This document shows, one piece after another, positions 173 to 43,973 of a stretch of DNA of 46,343 nt (position 1 is the stretch's first letter; each line of letters opens with the position of its first letter). The stretch is taken from assembly GCA_014377045.1 (NCBI GenBank), contig JACMQI010000010.1, positions 1 to 46,343 of the forward strand. Direction: 5' to 3'. The notes under the pieces were generated by a model. That model was not told the origin of the DNA. It did no database searches and worked only from the letters and a program-made list of their open reading frames with translations. The position numbers and the translations under genes are program-made. Origin of the DNA: a candidate division SR1 bacterium (GTDB taxonomy: Bacteria > Patescibacteriota > JACMRA01).

Positions 173-1204
173 TTAATTGAGGTTATTAGTATTTATAATA
201 TCAGCTTCTAGAATTTTATTAATTGACAAAGAAATCTTCAGATAATTAGATAGAAGACAATAACTTTGATTGTCAAATATATCATTCTTATAAATTGACA
301 TTTGATCTTCTGAAACATTTTGTACCATTTTTAGAGGGTAAAAAGAATACCATCCACTTTCAAAATCTCTACTATCTTGCTCATATTTAGTATTTTCAAG
401 CACTTTTTTGGTATAAACGTGATCACTGACTAGCGTAAATCCGAGAGCTTGCATGTGAAGACGGACTTGGTGCATCCTACCTGTCTTTATTTCTATTTCT
501 ACTAGAGACTGATTTGTTTGATGTGAGATGGCTATAGGCCTGATAATAGAAAAGGCAAATCGTGATTGGCTATCGTACGCCTTAGCTAAATCCTTGTCCC
601 AAAAAAGTTTTTGTCGTTTTACATCTATTTTATCACGAGTTTGATAAGCTTTTACAATATATTGTTTTTCTACAAGCCCTTCAGCAATACATAAATATTT
701 TTTAACAACTTTCCGTTCTTTAAACTGATTTTGAAGAAATATTAAAGTTTCCAAGTTTTTTGCAACGATCATCAATCCTTGTGTATTCTTATCTAATCTA
801 TGAACTAAACCTCGACTAGGATACTTAGTAGAATCAAATTTTTGCTGCTCAGGATATTTTTTTAATAGCCACTCTACGAGATTATCGTTTGTATGTCCTG
901 CTCCTGGCTGAACTACAACACCGAAAGGCTTAAATAAGAGCAAAAAATTTTCATTTTCCTCTAGAATTCTTACCTTATTAAAATCCCCATGCTCTCTTTT
1001 AGGCCAATTATTAATATGAATACTTTGACCTGGCTGTACCCAAAACATCCGATTAAATACTTCTAATTCATCAACGAAAACACCATAATTTTCTATGTTT
1101 CTTTGTATTTCTGGATGTGTGTAGTCAAGATTTTTTTGTGATTTTAAAAACAGTGTTACTGCTTTATGGAGACGAATTCTATTTACTATCATATATTTTT
1201 TCAT
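173..1204 (-). CDS. RluA-family 23S/tRNA pseudouridine synthase
   Basis: This 343-aa protein probably isomerises a specific uridine in rRNA or tRNA. The RluA-family catalytic block GLVHRLDKNTQGLMIVAK lies near residues 133-150, with the catalytic Asp in HRLD. A second family motif, TGRMHQVRLHMQALG, lies near 240-255. The N-terminal ~90 residues resemble an S4-like RNA-binding region. It is last in a four-gene minus-strand run. Its ATG overlaps the end of the ligase fragment by 26 nt, which suggests translational coupling. The last ~80 residues are poorly conserved. RluA, RluC and RluD specificity cannot be separated from sequence alone. Confidence 0.9.
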   Translation of the reverse strand: MKKYMIVNRIRLHKAVTLFLKSQKNLDYTHPEIQRNIENYGVFVDELEVFNRMFWVQPGQSIHINNWPKREHGDFNKVRILEENENFLLLFKPFGVVVQPGAGHTNDNLVEWLLKKYPEQQKFDSTKYPSRGLVHRLDKNTQGLMIVAKNLETLIFLQNQFKERKVVKKYLCIAEGLVEKQYIVKAYQTRDKIDVKRQKLFWDKDLAKAYDSQSRFAFSIIRPIAISHQTNQSLVEIEIKTGRMHQVRLHMQALGFTLVSDHVYTKKVLENTKYEQDSRDFESGWYSFYPLKMVQNVSEDQMSIYKNDIFDNQSYCLLSNYLKISLSINKILEADIINTNNLN

Positions 1205-2210
1205 TTAATTTTTCACATATAAGCTTAGCTACTTCAGGGCCGATACCATCAACCCCAAGTGCTGCTAAAAATCGGTAATCAATCATATTTTTTGACTTCT
1301 CGACTGATTTAGAAAGGTTTTCTACGGATTTTACACCAAAACCCTCTATAGTTTTTATATCTTGCCATGGTAGATTATAGAGATCATAGACATCATGAGT
1401 ATTAAATTTTTTGATAAATTTTTCTATGATTTTATCCGATAGCCCAGGAATATTTACCATATTTCTTTGACAATAATAACTAAGTCTACCTGCAATTTGG
1501 TCATGACAAGATTCTATATTTGGGCAATATATATCAACTTCTGTTTCAGAAAATACTAAATTTACACCGCAAGAAGGGCAGGAAGTGGGTACTTTGACTT
1601 TTCCATCTTGATCAAAGTGATTATTCTCGACATTGTTAGAAAACTGCCTAAGATTGCATAATACTTGAATGACCTCTGGGATAATATCCCCTGCTTTCCG
1701 TATTATCAGGGTATCTTTATAATAAAGATCCTTTTCTATGACTTCTTTATAGTTGTGCAGTGTTGCTCGCTTTACTATAGTTCCAGCTAATTCTGTCTCA
1801 TCCAAATAAGCCACAGGCGTAAGCTTACCAGTTCTACCTACCTGCCAGACTACATCTAACAATTGAGTCGTTACTTCTTCTGCAGCAAATTTCATAGCAC
1901 ACCAGCTACGTGGAGTTTTTCCTACAACCCCTAATTTACTCGATATAGAGTTTTCATATAGCTTTACTACCAAACCATCAATAGGATAAGATAGATTTTT
2001 TCTAATTTCATCCAGATTATTAAAAGATTCAATAATTTTATCAATAGTATCTATTTTTTTATTAAAAGGGTTAGTTGGAAATCCTAATTTAGATAAAAAA
2101 TCTAATTCACTTTCATGCTCAATAAAATTACTAGGATAGAAGTTATTTGGATTTGTAAAATCACGATCTTCTTGCTGTAGCAGTTTTTGTTCTAAATTCA
2201 ACTTGCTCAT
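1179..2210 (-). pseudogene. ligA: Truncated NAD-dependent DNA ligase (ligA fragment)
   Basis: This 343-aa frame matches only the middle of LigA. Ligase motif IV (PIDGLVVK), the motif V region (KFAAEEVTT), the OB-fold (WQVGRTGKLTPVAYL), a four-Cys zinc finger (CPSC...CPNIESC) and the first helix-hairpin-helix are present. Domain Ia and the first part of the adenylation domain, including the KxDG lysine that is adenylated, are absent. So are the later HhH motifs and the BRCT domain. Complete LigA has about 670 residues. The fragment follows the upstream membrane-protein gene by seven codons in the same frame. The adenylation lysine is missing, so it cannot self-adenylate. It is either a decaying relic or a non-catalytic DNA-binding remnant. 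Confidence 0.85.
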
Positions 2211-2231: not shown

Positions 2232-3452
2232 TTACTGACTGTCAACATTATTAATTTTATAAATATTTTTATTTTCTTGACCTGTAAAGTATAAGTTTTT
2301 ATCGTTTATTGAATATATAGATGATGCTGAAAATATACTATCTTTAAGTATATATGAAATTTTATTATTTTTCCACTCAATTTTTACAATTGCATCTGGT
2401 TCCTGAGTAAGATTGTATTGCTTAGCATTTTTTTTAATTAAACAATACAAAATATTAGCATTTTCATCATTAAAATTACATCTATTTGCAAATAAACCAC
2501 CCTTCACGCCTTCGCCTGTTAAGCGTTTAGAAATTTCAATATTGAAGATATCTAATTTTGAGCTACTAAAATCCATAATATTCGTTCTATATTGAGTCAG
2601 CAGATCTGCATTTGATGGTAAATCTGTATAAACAATTTGACTTTTTCCATATTGGAAAGATTCTATATTTTGTAATTCTTTTTGAATCGTTAGCTTGTTT
2701 TGTTCGACTAAAAATATATCAATCTTACCTTCTTTAATAGATTTTTCGAACCCAAACATGTAAACACTTTTACCTAATTGGCGTAGTTCTAGGGATTCGT
2801 ATTTTTTATCCTTGGGTATAATAACATCGGTTACAATAGTTTTGTCAGATAGATCTATCTTGTTAGCCTTAGAAATATGAATAACTTTGTCATTTAAATC
2901 AATAAAATAATACACAGCAGATTTTTCATTTAATGAATCCGCTAAGACCGGAGTTACCTGAATTATTCTATCTGGAAACCCTTTTATGATTTGTTCATTT
3001 GTAAAAATACTCGATCCTCCAGTTTCATTTATAACAATACCGTCTTTACCTGCTAAAAAATTTGATGCTGAGTAAGGAATTGGTGTAACAACTGGCTTAT
3101 CATTGTTAGTAAAATAATATTTGTCATTGATAAAAGCAATATTTTGATTTGTTATAAAAACTTGATTTGGGTATGCAATCAGCTCATTACCTACTTTTTT
3201 AAAATATGAAGTATTATCAAAGTCGTTAGCTGTAACAACAACATTTTCTTTTTTTTCGTTTTTAAATTTTACTGGATTTGTATCTTGTATTTGAACTTTT
3301 TTTTGGTCATAAGTTGTTTTAGAAAAATTTAACCAAATGAAACCTGATATTAATATTGATATTAATAAAAAACTTGCAATTACAACAAATACTTTTCTTC
3401 TAAATATAGGATCGTTTCTAAAAGATTGAATTAGATTAGTTATTAAGTTCAT
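2232..3452 (-). CDS. Membrane-anchored extracytoplasmic protein, unknown function
   Basis: This 406-aa protein has a short basic cytoplasmic N-terminus and one transmembrane segment at about residues 20-43 (VFVVIASFLLISILISGFIW). A long beta-rich extracytoplasmic part with repeated Phe/Tyr/Asn-rich strands follows, reminiscent of a beta-propeller but without a family motif I recognise. It begins 4 nt after the end of the upstream VirB2-like-topology protein and precedes the ligA fragment by 21 nt, so the three are probably co-transcribed. A role in the cell envelope or a secretion/pilus apparatus is inferred from context only. Confidence 0.75.
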   Translation of the reverse strand: MNLITNLIQSFRNDPIFRRKVFVVIASFLLISILISGFIWLNFSKTTYDQKKVQIQDTNPVKFKNEKKENVVVTANDFDNTSYFKKVGNELIAYPNQVFITNQNIAFINDKYYFTNNDKPVVTPIPYSASNFLAGKDGIVINETGGSSIFTNEQIIKGFPDRIIQVTPVLADSLNEKSAVYYFIDLNDKVIHISKANKIDLSDKTIVTDVIIPKDKKYESLELRQLGKSVYMFGFEKSIKEGKIDIFLVEQNKLTIQKELQNIESFQYGKSQIVYTDLPSNADLLTQYRTNIMDFSSSKLDIFNIEISKRLTGEGVKGGLFANRCNFNDENANILYCLIKKNAKQYNLTQEPDAIVKIEWKNNKISYILKDSIFSASSIYSINDKNLYFTGQENKNIYKINNVDSQ

Positions 3453-4999: not shown

Positions 5000-5719
5000 A
5001 TGATAAATAATATACTACCATCCGTAATTATTTTATATGGACCACCACTAGCAGGAAAAGGAACACAAGCTGACTTTTTAGAAAAACATTTGAAAGATTA
5101 TGTACATTTAGATTTTGGAACAGAACTCAGAAACTATGTAAAAGATGGGTTAAATCAAACTGAAAACAAAGACATGTTTGATAGAGCAATGCGACTAGAC
5201 CAAAAAATGAATGCTGGAGAAGGTGTAGATACCGTAGATCTAAGATTTGTTGTAGAAGAGAAGGTTGTAAATACACTTAAAAGTGATAAGAAGCTTCTTG
5301 TGGAAGGTCCTGGTAGAAAAGTAGAGGAAGCAAAATGGCTTGCTAACTTTTTTGAAAGTCAAAAGATCGATGTAATTATTTTTCACTTACATTTAAATCT
5401 TGATGAGGCTATAAAACGGTCTAAAACTCGCTGGTATATCCCAAATAAAGTTTTACCGTTTTTAAATTACGAAGATGCATTAAAAGAAAGTCCTGATGGA
5501 GAAAAACCGTATCAGCGATATGAAGATCTAGACCCTGCGATTAACACTCGTAGATATTCTGATATATATCTTAATGTTTTTGCAAAAGTGCTAGAAATTT
5601 ACCTATTAAGCTCTTCAAGTAAAGTATTTATTGTTGATGCTAGTGAAAACATACACGATGTATCAACAATTATTGCAGCCTATCTAAAAAAGTATTATGG
5701 TTTCAAACTTATCTATTAG
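5000..5719 (+). CDS. Adenylate kinase-like nucleoside monophosphate kinase
   Basis: This 239-aa P-loop kinase probably transfers phosphate from ATP to a nucleoside monophosphate. The Walker A loop GPPLAGKGTQ (residues 14-23) differs from the adenylate kinase consensus GPPGAGKGTQ by one Leu. The NMP-binding segment (HLDFGTELRNYV) and a lid-side arginine segment (RSKTRWYIPNK) follow. It is longer than the usual 215 residues, with an unusual insert around 155-185 and no Cys4 zinc lid. It is monocistronic with its own promoter. Adk is the best guess, but a divergent paralogue of broader specificity is possible. Confidence 0.8.
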   Translation: MINNILPSVIILYGPPLAGKGTQADFLEKHLKDYVHLDFGTELRNYVKDGLNQTENKDMFDRAMRLDQKMNAGEGVDTVDLRFVVEEKVVNTLKSDKKLLVEGPGRKVEEAKWLANFFESQKIDVIIFHLHLNLDEAIKRSKTRWYIPNKVLPFLNYEDALKESPDGEKPYQRYEDLDPAINTRRYSDIYLNVFAKVLEIYLLSSSSKVFIVDASENIHDVSTIIAAYLKKYYGFKLIY

Positions 5720-6330
5720 ATAGTCAAAGTCTTTGCATACCTCTGACTAATAATTTCCCAATTCATAAGTTCAAAATAGTCTTTGATATAGTCAGGTCGT
5801 CTACTTTGATAATCTAGATAGTACGCATGTTCCCAGACATCCATAGTTAATATTGGACTTCTACCATGCATTAGAGGTGAATCGGCATTTGCAGTTTTTT
5901 CGATAGACAGTTTTCCTTCGCCATCTACTACAAGCCAGACCCAGCCAGACCCAAACTGCCCTACACCAGCTGCAGTCCAAAGTTTTTGAAAATTCTCGTA
6001 GCTTCCAAAACTATCAATAGCATCACCAAGCTCTTTGCTAAGTTTAAATTCTTGCTTACCACCTTGCAAACTTTCAAAATAAAGATTGTGATTATAGACT
6101 TGTCCTGCGTTATTAGTAACAGCCTGTCTGATGTCTTCAGGAAGTTTATCTAGATTTTGCACTAGCTCTTCTATGTCATAATTGAGAAAAAACTCATGAG
6201 GAGCTAGAATCTCGTTTAGTTTATTCACATATCCAGCCAGATGTTTGTTATGATGAAATTCGAGAGTTTCTTTACTAATATATGGAATAAGTGCGGTATA
6301 GGAATATGGTAAATCGATCAATGTAAACAT
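5716..6330 (-). CDS. sodB: Superoxide dismutase, Fe-type
   Basis: This 204-aa enzyme dismutates superoxide to hydrogen peroxide and oxygen. Metal ligands are visible as the His in EFHHNKHLAGYV, the His in NNAGQVYNHNLYF, and Asp/His in DVWEHAYYLDYQ. The Gln of NNAGQVYNH together with Ala in TANADSPL matches the iron-type arrangement, whereas Mn-types have Gly and Gln at these positions. Metal preference is inferred from those two residues only. The stop overlaps the convergent adenylate kinase-like gene by 4 nt. There is no signal peptide, so it is cytoplasmic. Confidence 0.93.
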   Translation of the reverse strand: MFTLIDLPYSYTALIPYISKETLEFHHNKHLAGYVNKLNEILAPHEFFLNYDIEELVQNLDKLPEDIRQAVTNNAGQVYNHNLYFESLQGGKQEFKLSKELGDAIDSFGSYENFQKLWTAAGVGQFGSGWVWLVVDGEGKLSIEKTANADSPLMHGRSPILTMDVWEHAYYLDYQSRRPDYIKDYFELMNWEIISQRYAKTLTI

Positions 6331-6408: not shown

Positions 6409-6966
6409 TCATTTAGGAAATAATTTCAATTCTTCGAGACATTTACCGCGTGGACTGATTACATTTCGCTCTTCGTCTGTCATCTGACTTAAGGTATTAG
6501 GTGGTCCATTAAATAAAAATACTGTATAGATTCCTTTACCAACTCCGGTACGAGGAAAGACTATAGCGCCGTCTATTTTATTTGAAAATGTTACAGTTCT
6601 AGTTCTGCCTGTCCAACCTGCTGAAATGGTGATGGTAGCTTTGTAATTATTATGTGATTGGCAAATATGGTTGTATTCATGAGCCCCGCTATCATCTAAA
6701 GATTTTTCAAACCACTTAACCATAGTTCCAGGAAAACCATTTTAGTAATCTAATCCACAACAAAAGTCATCTACAATAAAGCCATCTTCTTTAATAATTT
6801 TTGCCAGTTTACTTTCGAAATTGGAATCAGCTTCTCATTTAAAATAGCTAATGGGGATAAGCTTTGAATTTCAGGTAAGTCTAAGTTAATAGACTTGATC
6901 TCAGAAAAAACATGCTTTTGCTTCATTAAGTTTAATCTCATTTCCAATAACAAAAAAAAGTTTCAT
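6409..6966 (-). pseudogene. rdgB: Broken XTP/dITP pyrophosphatase (RdgB/HAM1)
   Basis: HAM1-family sequence is spread over three frames. The start is MKLFFVIGNEIKLNEAKA (ATG at 6966). After a 1-nt shift at a T run (~6911) comes FSEIKSINLDLPEIQSL. A second shift near 6790 gives EDGFIVDDFCCGLDY, then an in-frame TAA (~6749). The rest is NGFPGTMVKWF and TDEERNVISPRGKCLEEL, the family's C-terminal block. RdgB removes non-canonical purine triphosphates from the nucleotide pool. With two frameshifts and one stop no intact product is expected. The last 104 codons remain open but lack the nucleotide-binding N-terminus. Confidence 0.8.
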
Positions 6967-7056
6967 ACAAATAGATTGTGCAGTACTTGAAACAAGTTTG
7001 TATAAAAAAGCGTTTTTGTCAACAAAAAATACTTCCTGTTAGGAAGCAAATCTGAT

Positions 7057-15549: not shown

Positions 15550-16170
15550 TTAATTAACTTTTATCCAACCTATGAATAAACGATTATAGGGATTTTCTTT
15601 TAACTCAAATGAAATATTTGTACTAGTTTTGTTTGTCAATGTAGCATTACTAAATTTAGCCGTATTGGATGTAAATGGATTGTTATATATATTAGAAAAA
15701 TCTAACTGACTACTTATATCACCACTAAAAGTATACCCATCTGGACTTTCAAAACCATTGATAAATTTAGTTGATTTAACTATATCAAAATCAATTTGCT
15801 TACTAGTCTTAGTTTTAATATCAAATCGATAATACGTTAAGTCCTTAGGCAAGATCATAGAACAATTGTTTAGCATTTGGTCATCAGATGACCCAGCTAC
15901 CTTTTTCATCAAGTTATCGCTATTTTTCTGTTTAAATTCTTCGCAATTATTAAGTTTTAGCTCACCATCATCTTTTATTTCAAATGGATTGTAAATAATA
16001 GGTTTATTATCTTTAGTTCCAAAATATGGATTATTATACGGTGCCACATACACAAAATCATACTTTGGGTTTATTTTACCATTATAATAACTATAATAAC
16101 CCCATATAGATGACACAAAAATAATAGGAAGGACAAAAGTAATAAATAAAAAAATACGTTCTTTTTTCAT
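15550..16170 (-). CDS. Membrane-anchored extracytoplasmic protein, unknown
   Basis: This 206-aa protein has an N-terminal membrane anchor or uncleaved signal (residues ~5-26, IFLFITFVLPIIFVSSIWGYY) and a polar beta-rich extracytoplasmic domain rich in Asn, Tyr and Lys. Two cysteines (NNCEEF and NNCSMI) could form a disulfide. I recognise no family. It is first in the unit with the DUF2157-like protein and ATL. Confidence 0.7.
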   Translation of the reverse strand: MKKERIFLFITFVLPIIFVSSIWGYYSYYNGKINPKYDFVYVAPYNNPYFGTKDNKPIIYNPFEIKDDGELKLNNCEEFKQKNSDNLMKKVAGSSDDQMLNNCSMILPKDLTYYRFDIKTKTSKQIDFDIVKSTKFINGFESPDGYTFSGDISSQLDFSNIYNNPFTSNTAKFSNATLTNKTSTNISFELKENPYNRLFIGWIKVN

Positions 16171-16396
16171 ACAATATGAGTTCTGTAATTAAAAATAACA
16201 AGATTGTCAATCCACTATGATTTCTTAATCACTTTAACTACATCTTTGTCTTAATCTAGCTCAATAAGATGTACATCTTTTAATATTTATTTAAATGCAA
16301 AAAATCATAAGTATTGTCAATCACCACTTGCTCAAATTTACTTGACAAAGTCATAAAATTTATTATTGTTGAAGATAAATCGTAATCTTCTTTAAT

Positions 16397-18493
16397 ATGT
16401 TCCTATCACACCCGAGTCGACGTAAAGTTGCAGCTTTTATACTAATTTTATGTTGCTTATTTTCTAATTTATTTTTAGTTCCTACATTTTCGCACGAAGA
16501 ATATACTAATACAAGTCAAGTAAAACCTAATTTTTCAACCACACCAGAATTTACAGTTTTACAACCAAAATTAGGGTCAAAAGCATCTATTGAAATTACT
16601 CCATATCGCGACAAAGTTAGTCCTAGTACTACTTTAGTTTCTCCTGTAGTAAACAATTCTCATTCTACTGAGACCCCCTATAGCAATCTTTCTCATCTTA
16701 CAACAAAACTAAATTATCGTTCTTTTGAACAGTCATTGCGATCTGCTCCAGTAAGAAAATTACCTATTATTTTTGTAAACCCAGAGACTGAACTCAATAC
16801 AGACATACTACCATCAATCACTACACCGCCGACAATTACACCACCTCCAGCTGTTATAATACCTATTATCACCCCGCCTATACTACCACCTACGCAACTA
16901 CAAAAGTTGGGTCGCTGGTCTGATCCACAAGCTATGTCAGTCGTTGGTATTCAAGCAAGTACGCTTCCAAACGGCAAAATCTTATTATTTGATGGAAGTG
17001 AAGGAGTAGGAGCTGGTGATGCACGAACTCTCAACTATGAGACTTACGATACAACTGAAAAAAAAATTACAAAATCAATGGCAACTACACCACTTGGTGA
17101 TTTACTTAAATACTCTGCTTTTTGTGCTGCGATGCTCGTACTTCCAAATGGAAATCTGTTTTTAGCAGGTGGCGATGTCCAAGGAGATGCGGTCGGAACT
17201 AAAAAATCAGGAGTTTTTAATATAGTAAATGATACTTGGAGTCTACTTAAGCAAATGTCATTTCCTAGATGGTACCCTTCAGCCATCCAAACACTTAGCG
17301 ATCAAATTTTAGTGGTTGGTGGAACTCAAGATAGCTACACAAACCCAGCTACTACACCAGAGTTATATAACATAGCTACAAATACATGGCGCCAGCTAAT
17401 TGGTGCTGATGATACAAATGATCAGGCGTACGGTGGTATTGGACATTTTTATCCATGGTTATACAACTTAAAAAATGGTAATGTAGCAAATCTAGGACCT
17501 AGACCTACTATTTCTATTATTAATACTGAAAATGAAGGTAGTATCACCAATTTTGCACCAAGAGATTTATATGATAATAACAAAATCCTAAGTGCAAGAA
17601 TGCAATCATATGGTTCAGTCGCTAGATTTTCAACCAATGAAGTACTTTTCACAGGAGGAGGCAATGATGAATTAGATACAAATAAATCTAAACTAAGGCC
17701 AGATTCCACTGATTTATTCGGTATATCTCCCGTTGAAACTGCAAATATTATCAAATTAGATGAGCTTCTAAAGTCACCACCAACCATAAATGGAAGAGAT
17801 CCATTATTTACTCAGCGAACTGGTAATCCTAAAGCCCCAAGGTCTAACGCAACTTTAGTTATTATGGCTGATGGAAAAATCATGCTTACAGGTGGTACAT
17901 CTATGAACGAAAGTGCTAATCGAAATGCTCAATATGATAATGCTGTTTTGACACCTGAAATTTGGGATAAAACAACTGGACTTTGGACAGGGTTAGCAAA
18001 CTATAAAACTCATCGTATATATCACTCTATTGCTTTATTACAAAAAGATGCCACGGTTTTCCAAGCAGGAGGAAGCGGATTTAACGGACAATGTATAGCA
18101 CCAAGAGGAGAAAATAAAATTACCGTTAAAGGAGTAAACGCTTGCAAGCAATACGAAATATATCAACCAGGCTATCTTTTTGATGGAAGCGGAGATCTAA
18201 AAAATAGACCAAATATAACATCTAGTCAGCCATCAAATTTGATCCCTAGTTCTAACTTTAATATTACAAGCAATCAAAATATATCAAAAGTAACCTTTGT
18301 AAAAGCAGGAAATGTCACCCACTCTACAAATATTCAGCAATATTTTATGGATACAGTAATTAAAACCAATGGAAATAAAGCAAATATCACACTACCAGAT
18401 AGCTATTTTGCTGCTCCTAAAGGAATGTATTTTATGTTTGTTTGGGACAAAGATGGCACACCAAGTATTGCTCAAGAAATTGATATAAACTAA
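16397..18493 (+). CDS. Secreted galactose/glyoxal oxidase-like copper radical oxidase
   Basis: This 698-aa protein has a signal peptide (residues ~8-32), a Pro/Thr-rich stalk (~100-170), a seven-bladed Kelch propeller and a C-terminal immunoglobulin-like E-set (DUF1929-type). Residues forming the Cu/Cys-Tyr cofactor of family AA5 can all be located: Cys243 (AFCAAM), Tyr293 (RWYPS), Tyr542-His543 (IYHSI) and His642 (VTHSTN). Such enzymes oxidise alcohols or aldehydes to release H2O2. Activity is inferred, not shown. It is monocistronic behind a TTGACA promoter at ~16341. A non-catalytic Kelch adhesin is the alternative. Confidence 0.85.
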   Translation: MFLSHPSRRKVAAFILILCCLFSNLFLVPTFSHEEYTNTSQVKPNFSTTPEFTVLQPKLGSKASIEITPYRDKVSPSTTLVSPVVNNSHSTETPYSNLSHLTTKLNYRSFEQSLRSAPVRKLPIIFVNPETELNTDILPSITTPPTITPPPAVIIPIITPPILPPTQLQKLGRWSDPQAMSVVGIQASTLPNGKILLFDGSEGVGAGDARTLNYETYDTTEKKITKSMATTPLGDLLKYSAFCAAMLVLPNGNLFLAGGDVQGDAVGTKKSGVFNIVNDTWSLLKQMSFPRWYPSAIQTLSDQILVVGGTQDSYTNPATTPELYNIATNTWRQLIGADDTNDQAYGGIGHFYPWLYNLKNGNVANLGPRPTISIINTENEGSITNFAPRDLYDNNKILSARMQSYGSVARFSTNEVLFTGGGNDELDTNKSKLRPDSTDLFGISPVETANIIKLDELLKSPPTINGRDPLFTQRTGNPKAPRSNATLVIMADGKIMLTGGTSMNESANRNAQYDNAVLTPEIWDKTTGLWTGLANYKTHRIYHSIALLQKDATVFQAGGSGFNGQCIAPRGENKITVKGVNACKQYEIYQPGYLFDGSGDLKNRPNITSSQPSNLIPSSNFNITSNQNISKVTFVKAGNVTHSTNIQQYFMDTVIKTNGNKANITLPDSYFAAPKGMYFMFVWDKDGTPSIAQEIDIN

Positions 18494-21176: not shown

Positions 21177-21911
21177 ATGCCAGGATCTAACAAATTTGAT
21201 TTTAAAAAGCCGTATCAGTCAGGAGAAGATTTTGATACATATATAAAAGAAACAGAATACCATCTTAAGAATCGTATTGATTCTAAGACAACCCATAGTA
21301 ATTTACTTGGGCTTGTGACCATCCTAACCATTGGTATTTTAGGACTAGGCGGATACCTATTTTGGCAAACCCAAAATGGTAATAATGCCCTAAATATACT
21401 ACAACAAAAGAAAGTGGCTGGTGTACAGGAAACATCAGTTCAAAATATTTTTTCAGGAGAGGGATTTAGTATTATACTCAAAAATAATACTCCATCAGGA
21501 TTTGAATCTACCAAAAAAACTGTAGATTTTCCGTATATAAAAAATAAAAAAGGTGTAGAAACAACACTCTTTAATAAACAAGATATTAACGGTACTGTTG
21601 TGACAAATTCTATTTCGATAGTAACTAGTGAGTATGATAATGCTTATGATTTACAAAAATTTGGTAACTTAGTTGTTCAAAACCTTGGTTCAGATTATGA
21701 AATCAAATCTAGCGAAATATCTGTACCAAAAAATATTAAATTATCAAAAATTCAAAAAAAAGATAGTACTGGAGACGTCAGTTATTTTGCGGCAGTTACT
21801 GCAGATAACTATTACATGATAAAAATTATCAATGAAAGTAAGGATTACGCTGAGCTAAGCGAATATACCAAATTTACTGATAGTTTTTTAGAAGGTCTAT
21901 ATCTTAATTAA
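21177..21911 (+). CDS. Single-span membrane protein, unknown function
   Basis: This 244-aa protein has a ~44-residue charged cytoplasmic head, a transmembrane segment at about 45-64 (LLGLVTILTIGILGLGGYLFW) and a ~175-residue extracytoplasmic domain. That domain alternates beta strands and Lys/Asn loops and ends LSEYTKFTDSFLEGLYLN, reminiscent of PsbP-like or lipoprotein folds, but no motif decides this. It diverges from tyrS; a TTGACA at ~21117 lies between them. Confidence 0.7.
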   Translation: MPGSNKFDFKKPYQSGEDFDTYIKETEYHLKNRIDSKTTHSNLLGLVTILTIGILGLGGYLFWQTQNGNNALNILQQKKVAGVQETSVQNIFSGEGFSIILKNNTPSGFESTKKTVDFPYIKNKKGVETTLFNKQDINGTVVTNSISIVTSEYDNAYDLQKFGNLVVQNLGSDYEIKSSEISVPKNIKLSKIQKKDSTGDVSYFAAVTADNYYMIKIINESKDYAELSEYTKFTDSFLEGLYLN

Positions 21912-22982: not shown

Positions 22983-24992
22983 AAAGTTGTCATTAAATCG
23001 AACACTCTTACCCACAAAACTATCGCTGGTAGCGTAGATGCACTGAAGATTTGTGGTGATATTGGTACTACCTGTGTGTGTCAGTACTATTTCTAGTAGT
23101 ATAGTGCTACACACTTTAGCTCATTAAATTAATCCCAAATATTAGGTATTACAAATTTATTAATTTGGACTAGTATTCTAGTATTTATACTGTATATATT
23201 CGGCTTAGCGCATTTGACGGATTTAGAAGAAAAAATAGAAGGCAGATCACCTGTATTTTACTTACTTATACAGCAATTAAAGACAGAGCCTCTTACAGCA
23301 TCAACCTTTCTTTCAATCGTGGTTCTTGTAATGATGGCCCTGACTATACTAGATTTCTGGCTCACAGGCGTCACCAGTCTACTTACAGCATTTAGCGGAC
23401 TTAAAATTGCCATTCTAGACCTGTATCCATATACTGAGTGTGGATTCCTGCTTACATAGTGGCTATATGATTTTTTGGACCACTTATGAGCAAAAGGTAT
23501 CGATAAGATAAATTCATTTTTTGGGCCTATAACCCTAATTTAGTTTATTTTAGTATCCATCTTTAGCATGTTTGCAATATCTCAGAACCCAAACTTTCTA
23601 TCAGCTTCGATAAAATTCTTACCTTTGACCATCACTATGAGGCTTTTTAGAACTTTGATATTGATTATTACGGGTTGGGAAGAAGTGCAACCAGATCGCA
23701 AAGATCATATGTTAGATATTTCTGGTAGTCGCGCAGTATTGCCTATTCAAATTGCATTTAGTGTCAACATTATAACAAATATTCTGTCTGTTTTAGCTCA
23801 ATGTTCTTTTACTCTTCAGTTAGCTGTAGGAATAAAAATTATACACGGTATCATAAGAAACCCTTTAACAAACCCGTTTACTATAGAAAAAAATCTTCTA
23901 AATAAATTTTTTGGTGCTTTGCCTTCACAGCAAATTATATTTTTTATGGTTGCCTATGCCCTGGTCGGAGTCATTATCGCAACTATACTTGGAGCCCAAA
24001 ATATCTTTGCTGAGCTCCATGGACTAGGTTTGTAGTTGCACATGCCTCGCATCTTCACTAGCAAGACAAACAAATACGAGTTTTATGTTCGGTCTATTTG
24101 TAACAGCTTGGTAATTGGGTATGCGTTACTTATTATTTTAGTTCAAACTGATGAAAAATTAGCCAGTGCATACGGTACTTCAATAATATGTAGTATGTTT
24201 GTTGGAAGTTTTCTAGCTAGCCAGCTCGTACCATATGTGATAAAAGAGCTTAATATCCAATCATCTTATAAGCGATTTCTTAAAAAAGCTGCAGCTATAT
24301 TTTTCAGTATTTGTAGTTTTCTTAGTATCTTATCTTCTAGGTGAGTTAAGTAAAATAGTTGAAGGAAAATGGATGACACTACTTGGTGCGGCTATTTTTA
24401 CCTTATTCTAGATTCATATCAATGGAGAGAAGAGTGCGTGAGTGAAGTATTAAATACTTAAACAATGACTATTACTGAACTGTATACTACTCACGAGACA
24501 TCTCCAGTTACAGGTATACTATTAGTAAAACCTTATAGTAATAGAATAAATGATGTAAATAAAGCACCCGTTTTCTTTCAAATGTACGCTCAAAAGCATC
24601 GTGTAGTTCCTCAGTATCTTATTTGTATAAGTATCAATATCGGCGTTGTTGCAAATAAGGTTTCTGGTCGATTCTCTTATCAGTTGCATCCTTATAGTAA
24701 TCACGAGGTTATTACTATCTCTGCAAGCTATGGATGGGCTGACGAGATCGATATTTACGATGCTATTGATTATATGAGTCATAAAATTAAGGTAGATCAG
24801 CTAGAAAATAGTATTTTTCTAACAAATAAGATCTATCTAACTTCTCGCAAACGAACCACTTAGTACCGCTGGTTAAAATACGAAATATATATATGCGAAT
24901 CCGTACAAATTTCAGTCAACCATTTCACGAATTGGTAGGTATTAATAACCCAAATAGTATAGTCAAAGTCAACTTTACTACCAAAATTTAAT
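22983..24992 (+). pseudogene. kup: Decayed Kup-family potassium transporter
   Basis: Kup homology runs through the region: GDIGTT (23055), a transmembrane block ending LKIAILDLYPY, FFGPITLI (~23520), an ITGWEEVQPD block (~23675), LASAYGTSII (~24160), EGKWMTLLGAAIF (~24364) and the cytoplasmic tail from GILLVKPYSN to about 24860. Most lies in one frame but is broken by about eight in-frame stops (such as TAGTAG near 23094, TAG 23457, TAG 24033). Frame changes occur near 24330-24460 and before the last 33 codons (24893-24992). Kup imports K+ with protons; no working transporter can be made. Confidence 0.85.
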
Positions 24993-34232: not shown

Positions 34233-34751
34233 ATGGAAAACATCGTACTAGGAGGAGGTTGTTTTTGGTGTTTAGAAGCAGCTTATCAATTGATAAAAGG
34301 TGTCACTAAAATCACTAGTGGATATAGTGGTGGTGAAACTATAAATCCTAGCTACGAAACAGTTTGCGATGGTAAGACTGGACATGCAGAAGTTGTAGAA
34401 ATAGAATATGATCATACAGTTATAACTCTAAACGAACTATTGATTATATTTTGGAAAATACATGATCCAACGAGTCTTAATAGGCAGGGCGGAGATGTGG
34501 GAACTCAGTACAGATCGTGCATTTTTTACCTAAATGAAGGACAAAAAAAAATTATAGAGACACAAATAAAAGCGCTTACTGAAAATAAGACTTTTGCTAG
34601 TCCAATAGTTACCCAAGTAGCTCCGCTAGATATTTTTTATGTTGCAGAAGAATATCATCAAAACTATTATCTAAAACATCCTGAACAAGGTTATTGTCAG
34701 TTTGTAATTGGACCAAAACTATCTAAACTAAAAGAAATACTCGATAATTAG
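34233..34751 (+). CDS. msrA: Peptide-methionine (S)-S-oxide reductase
   Basis: This 172-aa enzyme repairs oxidised methionine using a catalytic cysteine. The signature GGGCFWCLEAAY contains Cys10 (catalytic) and Cys13. SGYSGG, GHAEVVEIEYD, FWKIHDPTSLNRQGGDVGTQYRS and EEYHQNYY are all family blocks. No MsrB domain is fused, and no signal peptide is present. It fits with sodB as oxidative-stress defence. Its stop overlaps the convergent MscS gene by 4 nt. Confidence 0.97.
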   Translation: MENIVLGGGCFWCLEAAYQLIKGVTKITSGYSGGETINPSYETVCDGKTGHAEVVEIEYDHTVITLNELLIIFWKIHDPTSLNRQGGDVGTQYRSCIFYLNEGQKKIIETQIKALTENKTFASPIVTQVAPLDIFYVAEEYHQNYYLKHPEQGYCQFVIGPKLSKLKEILDN

Positions 34752-35810: not shown

Positions 35811-37202
35811 TTAATTTCCAAATAAACTTCCTCCTTGCGTATCATTAGATAGCATTAGATACGTCACCTGCGAGTCAGTCTTATCAATAATAATTTGCTT
35901 TATGGATCCTATTGGTGAACTTAAATTAATTTTATCGTTTGCTGACCAGCTCTGACCACGATTGTTTGTTTCAAAAATTTTATCATTTATACTCACTAAT
36001 AACCTATCTAGTCCTTTTTGAGGATCGGGCTGCACATCATTTATCTTATATTTATCGCTTTTCAATGGTAATAATAATTTTGTAAATGGTTTATTAAGAC
36101 TATCAGAATACCATATTTGACTATCTCCTATTATAAGCCACGAATTTTTAGCAGCCGTAATCGGTACAATTTTTTGAAATTGACTAAATTTAGTATTATC
36201 GAATATGTCTGAAGTTAATAATTTGTCTTTGCCTTGATTATCTCCAGAAATACGGGGCTGAGCGTGCAACAAGTTTACCGGATCCCAAGTTTGTCCTCCA
36301 TTTTTAGATAATCTCAACCCCTTACTAGCAAGTAAAACATAAAATTGATTATCAAACTCAGGAACAAAACCAAACTGTACAATCTTATCTTCAAAATTAA
36401 TAAGCTTTTGCCAAGTGGCACCTCCATCAGTACTTCGAATTAGCGTTCCACCATCAAGTATTGCAAAAACTGTCTGACTATTTGTCGGGTCAATAGAAGA
36501 TGCAACAACGGTGACTCCACTTTCTACCTCAGAATAAACTTCACTAAATGTATTTCCACTATCTATACTCTTAAAGATCTTCCCAAAAGTACTAATCTTA
36601 CCAGTTAAATATATGATTTCAGGTTTTGTAGGGTTAACTGCCATGCTGCTTGCTACAAATGTATTGTTTTTATTTATAAGATTTGTCACTTCCTCAACTG
36701 ACGCGTTTTGGGTAATAGGATAAATATATTTTCTTTCCCAAACTAGCACATCAGTATCAAGTTTTTGATTGTTTATTTCTCGGGTTGTATAGCTTTTGAA
36801 AAGCCCTCTAGTACTATTTAATAAATAAAAATTATTTTTTCCTGTTTGAATCATCTGTAAACCTGAAATTTGATTTAACCCGTCTGTTTGCACTTGTCCG
36901 TTGAGAAGTTTTACTGCATTTATAGTGCCAAAACCATCTCGCTTTGTACCGTCCTTGAGAATAAAATTTGGATCTTGCTTGAGCACTCCTAAAATCTTGG
37001 GAGAAGCATTAGAATTACCAATATTTAGACCAGGAATCCCGCAAGAAGCAGCAGAACCAAGAATAGTGAGACTAGTAAAAGCTAAAACAATTATTCTTGT
37101 AATTATAGGTTGGCTTATAAATTTAGTAAGTGAGAAAAGCATACAAGTGGCTAGAATATGGGTATTAATTGTAAGTTTAAGCTGTTTATGCTTTTTTGTC
37201 AA
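35811..37202 (-). CDS. Exported Asp-box (BNR/sortilin-like) beta-propeller protein
   Basis: This 463-aa protein has a hydrophobic export signal at about residues 31-52. A Cys in GSAASCGIPG could be a lipobox, making it a lipoprotein; an internal Met at about 21 may be the true start. Asp-box motifs mark propeller blades: SIDSGNTFSEV, STDGGATWQKL, SKNGGQTWDPV and TNNRGQSWSAN. Relatives include sortilin-type and Ycf48-like propellers. A ligand-binding surface role is inferred. It is first of a two-gene unit with mscS. Confidence 0.8.
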   Translation of the reverse strand: MTKKHKQLKLTINTHILATCMLFSLTKFISQPIITRIIVLAFTSLTILGSAASCGIPGLNIGNSNASPKILGVLKQDPNFILKDGTKRDGFGTINAVKLLNGQVQTDGLNQISGLQMIQTGKNNFYLLNSTRGLFKSYTTREINNQKLDTDVLVWERKYIYPITQNASVEEVTNLINKNNTFVASSMAVNPTKPEIIYLTGKISTFGKIFKSIDSGNTFSEVYSEVESGVTVVASSIDPTNSQTVFAILDGGTLIRSTDGGATWQKLINFEDKIVQFGFVPEFDNQFYVLLASKGLRLSKNGGQTWDPVNLLHAQPRISGDNQGKDKLLTSDIFDNTKFSQFQKIVPITAAKNSWLIIGDSQIWYSDSLNKPFTKLLLPLKSDKYKINDVQPDPQKGLDRLLVSINDKIFETNNRGQSWSANDKINLSSPIGSIKQIIIDKTDSQVTYLMLSNDTQGGSLFGN

Positions 37203-37291
37203 AGCTGATTATACAAAAACTTATAAATTGATACAGATAGCTTGACAATTACTATAAAAATATTTTGTATTAAATCATCAATCTTCATCAT

Positions 37292-38341
37292 ATGGTCAAA
37301 TTTATCTCCCTTTTTGGGGTATTAATTATTTTTATAGCTAATTTTCTTTTTACTCCTCATGTTTATGGAGCAAACTCTGTGTACATAAGTGAGATAAATT
37401 ATAATGGTAGTTCAGTAAGCGGTGGTGACAAATGGATAGAATTATATAATTCCACAAATAATCCTATTAACCTAGTCAACTGGAAGCTCAACATGCCAAA
37501 TAGCTCTAAGTCAGGTACTGTGGCTTTAACAGGTATCATTCCTGCGAATTTTCCTTTCGTAATAGGAGTAAAAAATACTAAATTTACAAATCTTTACAGT
37601 GCATCGAATCTCACTAATTATAATATAACTAATATTAGCAATACTCAAACTAATGAGATAAATTATATTAACGTACAATTAATTAATGAAACAGGTAGTA
37701 TCGTCTCGCAAATTCAAAAGAATGATAACTATATAAGAGCTCTAGGAGTATCAAGTAAGGGTGGAATCAAGCACTCGCTAGAATGCGATGAAGAGGCTAT
37801 TTGTAGCTTATCAAACGAAGCATATAGTGGTAGTAGTCTAGATTTTGGAACTCCTGGTATACCAATTCGACCCTTAGTTAAGCAAGAGCCTACTCCTGTC
37901 AAAATTATCGAGCCTGCACAGACTCAAACCCAGGTTAATTCTGAGCCTTTATCATTAGAAACAAATGCAATATCCGCTTTATATCCTGCTATTCAAGAAA
38001 ATCAAAGTATTGTAAATGTACCTGAAACGAATATCGTTATTTCACCTAATGTTAGCCCTATATTAGTATCGCAAACGTTTTCAAAAAATGTAGCCATAAA
38101 TTTGATTGATTCAGTCAGCTTCACAATACCATCAATGTCATTTAAACCTGTCGAAAACTTGGTTATAAATAAAGTTTCAATCCCAGAAGTAAAATTTCAG
38201 TCATTTTCTACCAAGTCTTCTCCTGCTTTATATCGATCAACCATTTCACCTGAATTTCAATTACTATTACTAGCAGTGCTAATAAGTTACAGTATTATTT
38301 CTAAAATGAAATTTGGAATATTAAGCCTTGTTACAGCTTGA
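37292..38341 (+). CDS. Lamin-tail-domain surface protein
   Basis: This 349-aa protein has a signal peptide (residues 3-25), then a lamin-tail domain at about 29-200 with the typical VYISEINYNGSSVSGGDKWIELYNST. A Pro/Thr/Gln-rich linker and a C-terminal transmembrane helix (LLLLAVLISYSIISKM) complete it, so it is tethered at the cell surface. A TTGACA lies ~50 nt upstream. Its TGA stop sits inside the -35 box of the next gene. Confidence 0.82.
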   Translation: MVKFISLFGVLIIFIANFLFTPHVYGANSVYISEINYNGSSVSGGDKWIELYNSTNNPINLVNWKLNMPNSSKSGTVALTGIIPANFPFVIGVKNTKFTNLYSASNLTNYNITNISNTQTNEINYINVQLINETGSIVSQIQKNDNYIRALGVSSKGGIKHSLECDEEAICSLSNEAYSGSSLDFGTPGIPIRPLVKQEPTPVKIIEPAQTQTQVNSEPLSLETNAISALYPAIQENQSIVNVPETNIVISPNVSPILVSQTFSKNVAINLIDSVSFTIPSMSFKPVENLVINKVSIPEVKFQSFSTKSSPALYRSTISPEFQLLLLAVLISYSIISKMKFGILSLVTA

Positions 38342-38366
38342 CAAAATAAAAGATTGACTATAAAAT
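38338..38366 (+). promoter_or_regulatory. Promoter of ybaB inside the preceding stop codon
   Basis: TTGACA (38338-38343) contains the TGA stop of the lamin-tail gene. A 17-nt spacer leads to TAAAAT (38361-38366), about 22 nt before the ybaB ATG. Confidence 0.7.
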
Positions 38367-38388
38367 ATTTTAGTTAAAACTAAATTTT

Positions 38389-38760
38389 ATGTTTCAAGGA
38401 ATCAAAAATACAGCAGGAGCTTTGGCAGGTGCGAACAAAATGAAAGCACAACAAGAAAAATTACAAAAATTACTTAATTCTGTACGTGTTGCAGGTGTAA
38501 GTAAAAATGGTAAAGTAACTGTAATTCTTACTGGTGATCAAAAAGTGGTAGAAATAAAAATTGACCCAAGTCTTATTACTTTTGTTTATGAAAACTATAC
38601 TTCTCAAAGTAAGGAAGACACGCTATTAGCAAAATCTATAATGGAAGCTATAGAGGATGCTGTATCTAAAGTACAGGCAGAAGTTGTCAAAAAAATGCAA
38701 GAAACTGGTAGTCTTGGTGATCTTATGTCCATGTTGCAAGCCGCCGGAGGAAATAATTAA
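38389..38760 (+). CDS. YbaB/EbfC-family nucleoid-associated protein
   Basis: This 123-aa DNA-binding protein dimerises and coats the nucleoid. The N-terminal coiled helix (KMKAQQEKLQKLLNSVRVAGVSKNGKVTVILTGDQKVVEIKIDP), the central beta sheet and a C-terminal helix ending SLGDLMSMLQAAGGNN fit the family in order and length. In many bacteria it sits beside dnaX and recR; here it stands alone. Confidence 0.88.
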   Translation: MFQGIKNTAGALAGANKMKAQQEKLQKLLNSVRVAGVSKNGKVTVILTGDQKVVEIKIDPSLITFVYENYTSQSKEDTLLAKSIMEAIEDAVSKVQAEVVKKMQETGSLGDLMSMLQAAGGNN

Positions 38761-38763
38761 ACT

Positions 38764-40110
38764 TCAGCAAATAAAATTGTAATAATTACATTTACTGTGA
38801 TTGTGTCAATAATTCCACCGTTAACACTCTAGTTCAAGCTCTGGTTATATACTTGAAATGGTAATGTAAAAACCAAACCATTTAAGTCTGATGCTTAAAT
38901 TACTTGATTCGCAAATACATCAACACCGTTGAGTTTAAGTGTGCCCTAATTTGGAAAAGACGGTATCTTTATAGATACTATTGGGTTATAATCTGCATCG
39001 GTGCAAAGATTTTAAAAATGAAATCTAGGAAAAGAAATAGTATTGTTTCCCGGTGGTTATGCATAACTATTACTAATTACTGGCGAAGTATTAACTATAC
39101 CGCTATCGATTACAATCGTCTGGGTTATTGTTGTGCTGTAATCTCCAGATGAAAGATATACAGGAACTCTCAAACCAAAAATTGTTTTGCCTAAATCATA
39201 CCTTCCTTATGGTACAATTGATGTGTTACTGAACAGAGTATGTTGTACAGCTGGATCCGTAATTAGAGCTTTGGAGCCTGTCACAAAATTTGAAGAGTTT
39301 GTAATTAGATTTGATTTAATTTTTGATATAGTTCCGATAGAAGGATCTAAAGTTGCAGAAATTTTATCTTCTGCTAAAAAATTTGCCGGGTTTATGTTTG
39401 AGCCAGTCTCAATGATTTTTGTAGTTGCTACTACGCTAGTTCCTCCGTTTATTGGTATGATTACCACTATAGGCACTGAAGTATACCCTGTACCATAATT
39501 TTTTACACCAATCTTTGTTATCATATCATTTAATACTGCTGATGTTACTCCAAATCCATTACATCCTACGAAAGTTATCTCAAGTACCGATTTATATCCT
39601 GACCCAGCATTGCTAACAGCTACACTGGTTATCGCTCCTTGATCTAGTACTGCTAGGGCTCTATCTAGATTTGTACCTAACGCGATAATATTTGCAATAT
39701 TGTTGTAATCTACTAAATTCGATATCTCTGTAGTAATTGTACAGACCTAAATAGCTTGACCTCTAAGATCGTTAAAAAGCATATCATGAATTAATGTCGA
39801 TGGATTTTGTCTTACTAGAGCTACATTTATAGAACCAAGGAAAATACTATTTTCGTCTGTGTTACATGTTACAAGTTTTTTGATTACTTGAAATCCTGGA
39901 CTATTCATTGTTGTAGTGATATCAGCATTTAAACATATATCATCGCTGTCTAGGCTATCACCTGTATACACAAGTCAATGATCTACCTAAAATATTTAAT
40001 GAGGCATTTGTAGCTATTTGTGAACACACTAATAGAGAGGTGTTAAGAGTAATAAAGCAGATTAAAATAATAGTTATTAAATTGAAAAGAAGGGAAAAAA
40101 TCTAGATTTT
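38764..40110 (-). pseudogene. Decayed secreted adhesin with cadherin-like repeat
   Basis: Reading the minus strand, a signal-peptide-like start (LITIILICFITLNTSLLVCS, ~40080) shifts frame near 39975. About 400 codons then stay in one frame but contain seven stops, all TAA or TAG (first at 39749-39747). Readable parts are Gly-rich repeats (AITSVAVSNAGSGY, GVKNYGTGYTSVP), PVYLSSGDYSTTITQTIVID, and a repeat of the TDADYNPIVSIKI / GTLKLNGVDVFANQVI type. The Gly-rich part resembles the exported protein at 3.5-4.8 kb. No ATG precedes the signal peptide. Confidence 0.75.
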
Positions 40111-40211
40111 GCTTTTAATTTTTGGTTTTTGTTATACCTTTACATATCAATAGTTTTATGTATTTGAAATAAAAAATACCAAAAGGGGTGCACTAACTGG
40201 TTTTTTATATC

Positions 40212-42245
<2,034 letters not shown>

Positions 42246-42329
42246 TTATTACTACTTAATGAGTATGAGTTTATTAAAATTGTAGTGCAAAGTTGACTTG
42301 GTTAAGACCAAGTTTATTTATCGCGCTTC

Positions 42330-42830
42330 TTAGTTTTTATTACTTGTTTCTACATGGTCATTATCATTTCTAAACCATTCTTTATTACTTAAAAGTAACA
42401 TATGTGGTTGTTCTTTCCAATGAAAAAATGAAGTTTTCTCAGTAAATAATAAATAAAGACTTCTTAGAAACTCAAATTTTGGTCTACTATATGACTCAAT
42501 TTTAATAATACTTATATCTTCTATTTTATGTTTATAATTGTAAAAAGATAGAGTTTTACATTCAAATTCATAAATATCATCAATAAAATCACTTTTCTGG
42601 TCACAATATTCAGGTTTTAGCTGCCAAGAGTATAATAAGTGACAATCTTCAGTACAGTCAGGAGTATTTATACTTTGTTGTATACTAATTACCGTATATT
42701 TAAGAGAATTAATATGGATTTGAAATTTACTACTAGTTAAAATATTATAATCTCGTAATTGCTCAAAAGCAAAAAAAAAAACCGTTATCAATTAACCATT
42801 TTTCAGCTCTGAATAAAGCGAAATTTTACA
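42330..42830 (-). pseudogene. Hypothetical gene broken at codon 2 and at a T11 run
   Basis: The minus strand reads ATG TAA AAT TTC at 42830. If codon 2 were AAA the protein would begin MKNFALFRAEKWLIDNGF. It then meets an 11-T run (42781-42771), after which a different frame continues for ~145 codons (AFEQLRDYNILTSSKFQIHI to DNDHVETSNKN). One T fewer would join them. The readable part has paired Cys (TPDCTEDCHLLY and PEYCDQ) and many aromatic residues. I recognise no family. A TTG start before the T run could still express the C-terminal part. Confidence 0.5.
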
Positions 42831-42880
42831 TTGAATTTACCTAAAATAAAGTATAAACCTAATTTATTCAATTCCATTTT

Positions 42881-43963
42881 TTATTTTTTAGTAATACTAT
42901 TATTATCATTTTTAATAGCTTTTCTTACTGCAAAAAATCCAATAATTGAAATCAAGATAATAATCAAATTTTTAGCTACTTTAATTTTTCTACTTTCTGA
43001 ATAATCTGGATCCTGAGTTTTATCTATTCCTCTAAACTGAGCTACAGCTTTATTATTTACGTCTATATAACTTTCTAAACTACCTGAAACATTTTCATTT
43101 ATTGTTTCACCAATTTCAAGATTGTTTAAAGCTTCCACTGTATAATCTAGTTTAATACTAGTTTTACTTGATTTATAGGGTAAATTAGTTGAAATAAAAT
43201 ATTCTTTTTCACCTATATTTGGTACCATATTTGTAGTAAATTCACCTGTTTTTTCATCACTGTTTTCATATTTAATTGTGTACTTTCCTCTTATAACAGA
43301 AAAAATATTTCCTGTATCTTGAGCTATAAAGCTGAAAACTATATTATTTTTATCCCAAAAGTTTAGCTTTTTTTGAAGATTCTCTTTATCAGGTGCACTG
43401 GGATTCAATATGTTCAAATTGCTAACAGTAGAAGAAAGAATAGGTAATCCTTCATTTTGTACAAGCAGATATAATTTTAAGCCTTTTCGAATAGTATTTT
43501 TTACACTAGCTCCAGTTTTATCAGTACTCTGTATAGTTAATGTAATACCTGCTCCATATTCACCGTTTTTAACATTTGCAGGAACGATAATTTTTATTGG
43601 AACATTGATTTTGCCATTAGGCTCAACTGCAATATTACCTGTTAACATTTCTACCCAGCTCGCTAGTTGTTTATTTTTTTCAGTATTTTGCAGTAAAGCT
43701 ATAGTACCTTCGTTAGTCACTGAAATGTCATTTATTTGTAAAGCAAAATTTGAAGTCGTTACATCAGTATTAATTACATCAAAGGATTCTGAAATAACTT
43801 CACCAGGTTTGGCTTTAAAAAACATGGCTTTTTCTTCGCTTGCATTTTTAGGCGTAACGATAAGCGCAGCGTTAACCTGAAGAAATACGAATTGGGATAC
43901 ACAAAAAATAATGACTGCTAAGTAGAAAGTGATACTATTTTTAAAGAGATATTTATGAATCAT
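42881..43963 (-). CDS. Cell-surface protein with DUF916-like domain and C-terminal anchor
   Basis: This 360-aa protein has a signal peptide (residues ~10-32, cleavage after VNA), then beta-sandwich domains like those of DUF916/WxL-associated proteins (AKPGEVISESFDVINTD, NGEYGAGITLTIQ), a second Ig-like domain, and a C-terminal transmembrane helix (LIIILISIIGFFAV) with a Lys-rich tail. It starts 10 nt after the stop of the large adhesin, so the two form an operon. Presentation or anchoring of the adhesin is a reasonable inference. Confidence 0.78.
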   Translation of the reverse strand: MIHKYLFKNSITFYLAVIIFCVSQFVFLQVNAALIVTPKNASEEKAMFFKAKPGEVISESFDVINTDVTTSNFALQINDISVTNEGTIALLQNTEKNKQLASWVEMLTGNIAVEPNGKINVPIKIIVPANVKNGEYGAGITLTIQSTDKTGASVKNTIRKGLKLYLLVQNEGLPILSSTVSNLNILNPSAPDKENLQKKLNFWDKNNIVFSFIAQDTGNIFSVIRGKYTIKYENSDEKTGEFTTNMVPNIGEKEYFISTNLPYKSSKTSIKLDYTVEALNNLEIGETINENVSGSLESYIDVNNKAVAQFRGIDKTQDPDYSESRKIKVAKNLIIILISIIGFFAVRKAIKNDNNSITKK

Positions 43964-43973
43964 ATTTATTTTA

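Follow-up and report, generated by a model that had tools for sequence, protein, structure and literature searches.

A copper radical oxidase gene in the small genome of a candidate division SR1 bacterium

Copper radical oxidases have been studied mainly in fungi and Streptomyces. What, then, is a gene of this kind doing in a candidate division SR1 bacterium, on a contig of 46,343 nucleotides (JACMQI010000010.1 of assembly GCA_014377045.1) that was analysed over its whole length and is referred to here as the window? The enzyme class is known and the news is its host distribution, since an intact oxidase in a 1 Mb genome, from a group nearly without the enzyme, represents a redox enzyme kept or gained despite gene loss and makes one wonder what oxygen, copper and substrate are available to such a cell. 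Our literature search found no paper reporting copper radical oxidases in such small-genome bacteria, which is of course no proof that none exists.

The gene is intact and is a genuine copper radical oxidase gene (Table 1). When its product was compared with solved structures, copper radical oxidases and GlxA accounted for all of the 21 best-matching distinct sequences, e.g. a Colletotrichum enzyme (6ryv, 1.2e-32), 9g8h (4e-30), galactose oxidase (1gof, 8e-24) and GlxA (4unm, 2.3e-15), with similar scores for the best fungal and the best bacterial match. A fungal AA5_1 enzyme (9n3u) is matched at 4.9e-11. In Pfam, Kelch_6 is matched at 5.5e-12, while Glyoxal_oxid_N stays below its cut-off (28.4 bits vs 37.5), which is why the protein is not filed as AA5_1. 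An AlphaFold2 model of residues 161-698, made with 51 relatives, has a pTM of 0.90 and a mean pLDDT of 85.0, rising to 89-95 in the ten-residue blocks around the five catalytic residues. When this model was compared to the PDB with Foldseek, the first 27 matches were galactose oxidase, alcohol oxidases, GlxA and Fusarium glyoxal oxidase, with TM-scores by query length of 0.70-0.78 for AA5-type oxidases, then ~0.4 for plain kelch propellers. The hallmarks of AA5 enzymes, that is, a kelch propeller with a GO-like E-set domain, and the Cys, Tyr, axial Tyr and two His residues, are all present. An initial annotation made from the sequence had proposed a galactose/glyoxal-type copper radical oxidase, which is supported by sequence, Pfam, AlphaFold fold and the five residues; the structure prediction that it suggested as a check of the active site was passed for fold and alignment only.

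Table 1. Features of the oxidase gene and of its upstream region, in window coordinates.
Feature	Position	Strand	Basis
Promoter-like site TTGACA-16-TATTGT, 27 bases before ATG	16342..16369	+	10/12, consensus match only
Copper radical oxidase gene (AA5-like)	16397..18493	+	ATG start, 698 aa, open frame; Pfam, solved-structure matches
Signal peptide or membrane anchor RRKVAAFILILCCLFSNLFLV, within residues 1-33	16397..16495	+	Hydropathy; read from sequence
Ser/Thr/Pro-rich stalk, residues 34-165	16496..16891	+	Composition
Kelch beta-propeller, ~residues 168-602	16898..18202	+	Pfam Kelch and Glyoxal_oxid_N, AlphaFold, Foldseek
Codon of Cys243, cysteine of predicted Cys-Tyr cofactor	17123..17125	+	Alignment
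Codons of Trp292-Tyr293, AA5_1-type second-sphere Trp and cross-linked Tyr (predicted)	17270..17275	+	Alignment; PMC13094651
Codons of Tyr542-His543, axial Tyr and copper ligand (predicted)	18020..18025	+	Alignment
GO-like_E_set C-terminal domain (PF09118), residues 604-697	18206..18487	+	E 6.4e-15, over cut-off
Codon of His642, predicted copper ligand	18320..18322	+	Alignment

Export is predicted from the N-terminus, in which a hydrophobic stretch (~residues 11-28, peak Kyte-Doolittle 2.64) comes after RRK, with no canonical lipobox in this region. The stalk consists of 16% P, 14% T and 11% S, and has neither a recognisable Pfam domain nor a convincing match in relatives. Hydropathy and composition thus agree with the signal peptide and Pro-rich stalk that had been proposed, except that the helix could also be an anchor. 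The protein should therefore be either secreted, if the helix is cleaved, or membrane-anchored, if it is kept; the signal sequence of GlxA doubles as an N-terminal anchor (PMC11022532).

Five residues in FCxG, RxYxx, RxYHS and VTHS motifs align with those that form the active site in copper radical oxidases of solved structure, and their positions, given from the start as Cys243, Tyr293, Tyr542, His543 and His642, are exact. The window protein was aligned with relatives from the best 80 bacterial loci in 84,980 species genomes, scanned with a three-row alignment as query, and from plasmid loci. All five residues are kept in 76 of the 89 relatives aligned, the other 13 being eleven kelch-only relatives (L088-L099), L075, which is truncated by a contig end, and L062. 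In the latter, His replaces the axial Tyr542 and the other four residues are kept, which is either a natural variant or a sequence error. In other words, only one full-length true relative lacks any of the five residues, which kelch-only proteins have lost. Such agreement goes well past what chance would give. Their conservation at only ~30% overall identity is strong evidence of selection on chemistry. Judging from this alignment, the window protein would bind copper and form the Cys-Tyr cross-link, and is probably active as a copper radical oxidase.

Which substrate class is favoured can be approached through the second sphere. In galactose oxidase W290 stacks on the Cys-Tyr pair, in GlxA the stacking residue is W288, and in a fungal AA5_1 aldehyde oxidase the Trp stands directly before the cross-linked Tyr, in a flipped orientation (PMC13094651). 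The window oxidase has W292-Y293 within RWYPS, Gln311 at the position of galactose oxidase W290, and no GSW motif, that is, it has by sequence the Trp that marks AA5_1 (PMC13094651) and lacks the stacking aromatic that marks AA5_2. The two arrangements are almost mutually exclusive across the 77 rows of the relatives alignment: Trp before Tyr without a GSW motif in 66, Gly or Ala before Tyr together with GSW in 10, and both in a single row. The stacking residue, which the initial annotation had left open, is thus probably W292, in the AA5_1/aldehyde-oxidase arrangement, which favours aldehyde/glyoxal-oxidase-like chemistry and makes galactose oxidation the less likely activity.

None of the known systems is matched in every respect. 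GlxA of Streptomyces lividans (4unm) shares with the window protein the five residues, a propeller with C-terminal E-set and probably an N-terminal membrane anchor, and the GlxA equivalog model NF052501 matches at 5.5e-33, but with 114 bits vs a cut-off of 800; moreover, cslA (cellulose synthase-like) is not beside the window gene, and W288 sits elsewhere in the chain than W292 (PMC13094651). Fungal AA5_1 (9n3u) has the same fold and the Trp before the cross-linked Tyr (W509-Y510 vs W292-Y293; PMC13094651), but overall similarity is low (4.9e-11) and the window protein is without a WSC domain. AA5_2 enzymes including galactose oxidase (1gof, 6ryv, 5c86), with the same fold and five residues, are the best sequence and structure matches, but they differ at the W290 position (Gln311 in the window protein), in having RGYQ, in galactose oxidase, instead of RWYP, and in having an N-terminal carbohydrate-binding domain, which the window protein lacks. 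Finally, uncharacterised RWYP-type oxidases in Actinoplanes, Acidobacteria, Gemmatimonadota and Burkholderiales have the same motif set at ~24-33% identity to the window protein, but most carry C-terminal extensions that it is without, and it falls in no RWYP-type clade with support.

We consider it likely that the gene encodes a functional exported copper radical oxidase, probably tethered, that oxidises aldehydes or glycan alcohols with production of H2O2 and was gained laterally long ago. In such a scheme, the protein would be exported, with its N-terminal helix and proline-rich stalk probably tethering it to the outside of the membrane. Copper would be bound by Y293, Y542, H543 and H642, with Y293 cross-linked to C243 and carrying the radical, and W292 stacked over Y293 as in fungal AA5_1. 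An aldehyde (or a glycan primary alcohol) and O2 would then yield an oxidised product and H2O2, whose predicted release follows from established AA5 chemistry. The most likely role would be surface glycan or aldehyde oxidation, modifying surface/environmental glycans or reactive aldehydes in a manner comparable to GlxA of Streptomyces. A distinctly less probable alternative, although the most serious, is scavenging or detoxification, in which a glyoxal/methylglyoxal-type oxidase would clear reactive carbonyls outside the cell. This would fit the AA5_1-type Trp-Tyr arrangement, and a fungal glyoxal oxidase does just that (PMC11315307), but the window protein resembles fungal AA5_1 only distantly in sequence (9n3u, 4.9e-11, a much weaker match than those to AA5_2 enzymes) and its sequence does not reveal the substrate.

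The gene stands alone, in divergent orientation to 15550-16170 and with the next gene 250 bases on. These neighbours encode proteins of 206 aa and 112 aa, respectively, and Pfam matches neither of them; no recognised toxin, attachment, peroxidase or glycan-synthesis gene adjoins it. Promoter-like sites in the region are not above shuffles in number, and the one in Table 1 is no better than chance. Superoxide dismutase (SOD; 5716-6330) and MsrA (34233-34751) had been pointed out in the same window, and both are indeed there, but they are not clustered with the oxidase, the former being ~10 kb upstream of it and the latter ~16 kb downstream. The genome also has four AhpC/TSA-type matches, including two stand-alone peroxiredoxin-like proteins. 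No catalase, COX1 (haem-copper oxidase subunit I) or Sco was found in the 86% complete genome, and the CPC motif of copper pumps is absent from both of its P-type ATPases, so that nothing clearly points to other uses of copper or oxygen by the cell, although these absences are soft because of that completeness. Among relatives, the oxidase gene adjoins one for an SCO protein in Caballeronia (L014) and one for a copper P-type ATPase in Haliscomenobacter (L017). Another copper radical oxidase (L019) lies on a contig of 170 kb that is classed as viral (IMGVR_UViG_3300043788_000023), which may be bacterial DNA, and is followed by what appear, from sequence, to be polysaccharide deacetylase and glycosyltransferase genes.

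How unusual is such an enzyme here? The genome comprises 1,044,403 bases in 42 contigs at 86% completeness, with a contamination estimate of 1.5%, and its relatives in the phylum mostly have 0.5-1.1 Mb. Its 16S sequence has one mismatch to each of the TM7-580F and 515F primer sites, which, like the small genomes, suits a Patescibacteria-like lineage without pointing to a particular one; no L15 was found from which to read the L15/L30 neighbourhood. The 'reduced bacterium' of the initial annotation is therefore correct as regards small genome size, and so is its view that the enzyme is unusual for such a genome, given that only two of the 380 genomes sampled from the phylum contain PF09118 and that the five other members of the family/class examined all lack it.

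The small genome also invites a host-directed reading, in which an episymbiont would carry the oxidase on its surface and damage or cross-link the host cell surface with H2O2 or aldehydes. The protein is exported and stalked by prediction, other likely surface proteins are encoded in the window, and peroxiredoxins could protect the producer. We nevertheless regard this as improbable: there is no known host, the neighbours of the oxidase include no recognised gene for a toxin, for attachment or for a peroxidase, sisters of the same genome size are without it, and the relatives found sit in many bacteria with larger genomes, e.g. Actinoplanes and Burkholderiales. The fuller scenario, that a host-dependent small-genome bacterium took up the oxidase and uses it on host envelope or glycans, with H2O2 as a weapon or crosslinking agent, is slightly more doubtful still, and the weapon or crosslinker that had been suggested is speculation without support. 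It is no more probable that the protein is a non-catalytic kelch-propeller surface protein (an adhesin) that kept the fold and lost the chemistry, an idea to which its long branch and the failure to find a copper delivery protein lend something, but which sits badly with five catalytic residues and a second-sphere Trp kept at ~30% identity when kelch-only relatives lose the five.

Returning to the exported oxidase that we favour, where did it come from? The window protein is divergent, its best identity being 33%. Its terminal branch measures 1.9 changes per column, and neither of two trees gives it a supported neighbour. No donor clade emerged, as no supported set holds the window protein in trees without eukaryotic sequences. 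Single-protein scans of genome and viral contigs gave no close relatives, and neither did phages. The gene is nevertheless at home in its genome, with a GC3 of 0.20 and a codon fit no less typical than those of the genes around it, in a window of even GC (27-38%). The same contig carries rpsG, gyrB, uvrB, groES/groEL, smpB, tyrS and rnhB. All five sister genomes, which are without a counterpart of the oxidase, have TyrRS at ~48-64% identity, and the gene at 21177-21911 is beside tyrS in two of them, which shows that the contig belongs to the lineage. Its divergence, its adapted codon usage and its place on a contig that belongs to the lineage make the gene look like an old lateral acquisition rather than a contaminant, and we infer that the lineage acquired it long ago. 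That the contig is contaminating or mis-binned is very improbable, since the draft state of the assembly, its estimated contamination of 1.5% and the presence of the gene in only one genome of the class weigh little against rpsG, gyrB, uvrB, groEL, smpB and tyrS on the same contig, the sister-like tyrS with its upstream neighbour kept in two genomes, and the even GC and uniform codon use.

The other copy in the phylum (L003/L108, G051:C93:44383-45780) comes from a genome of 1.7 Mb, where its contig measures 418 kb. It shares 75% identity with an enzyme of Actinoplanes and carries a C-terminal extension; it looks like a separate, Actinoplanes-like and more recent transfer. Placing it in one group with the window oxidase is disfavoured (p-AU 0.026, less than firm owing to the long branch of the window protein), and the two are best read as separate acquisitions.

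Several minor features deserve mention. In one sister genome TyrRS (G001:C45:13903-15039) is in three pieces, the last with all three kinds of stop codon, which points to assembly errors or to gene decay in this family. Within the window, 35811-46343 encodes likely surface proteins (Vps10/BNR propeller, lamin-tail, WxLIP-like and SdrD_B domains) interspersed with gyrB and others, and 23100-24863 (+) is the remnant of a KUP-type potassium transporter, a pseudogene with many in-frame stops in one frame. An NAD-dependent DNA ligase at 1179-2210 (-) is without the first ~170 positions of its adenylation domain and looks like a truncated copy, the ORF upstream of it (2232-3452) having no Pfam match, and a Ham1-like pyrophosphatase at 6409-7050 (-), of which only the last third is matched in one ORF, seems to be split between two or more frames.
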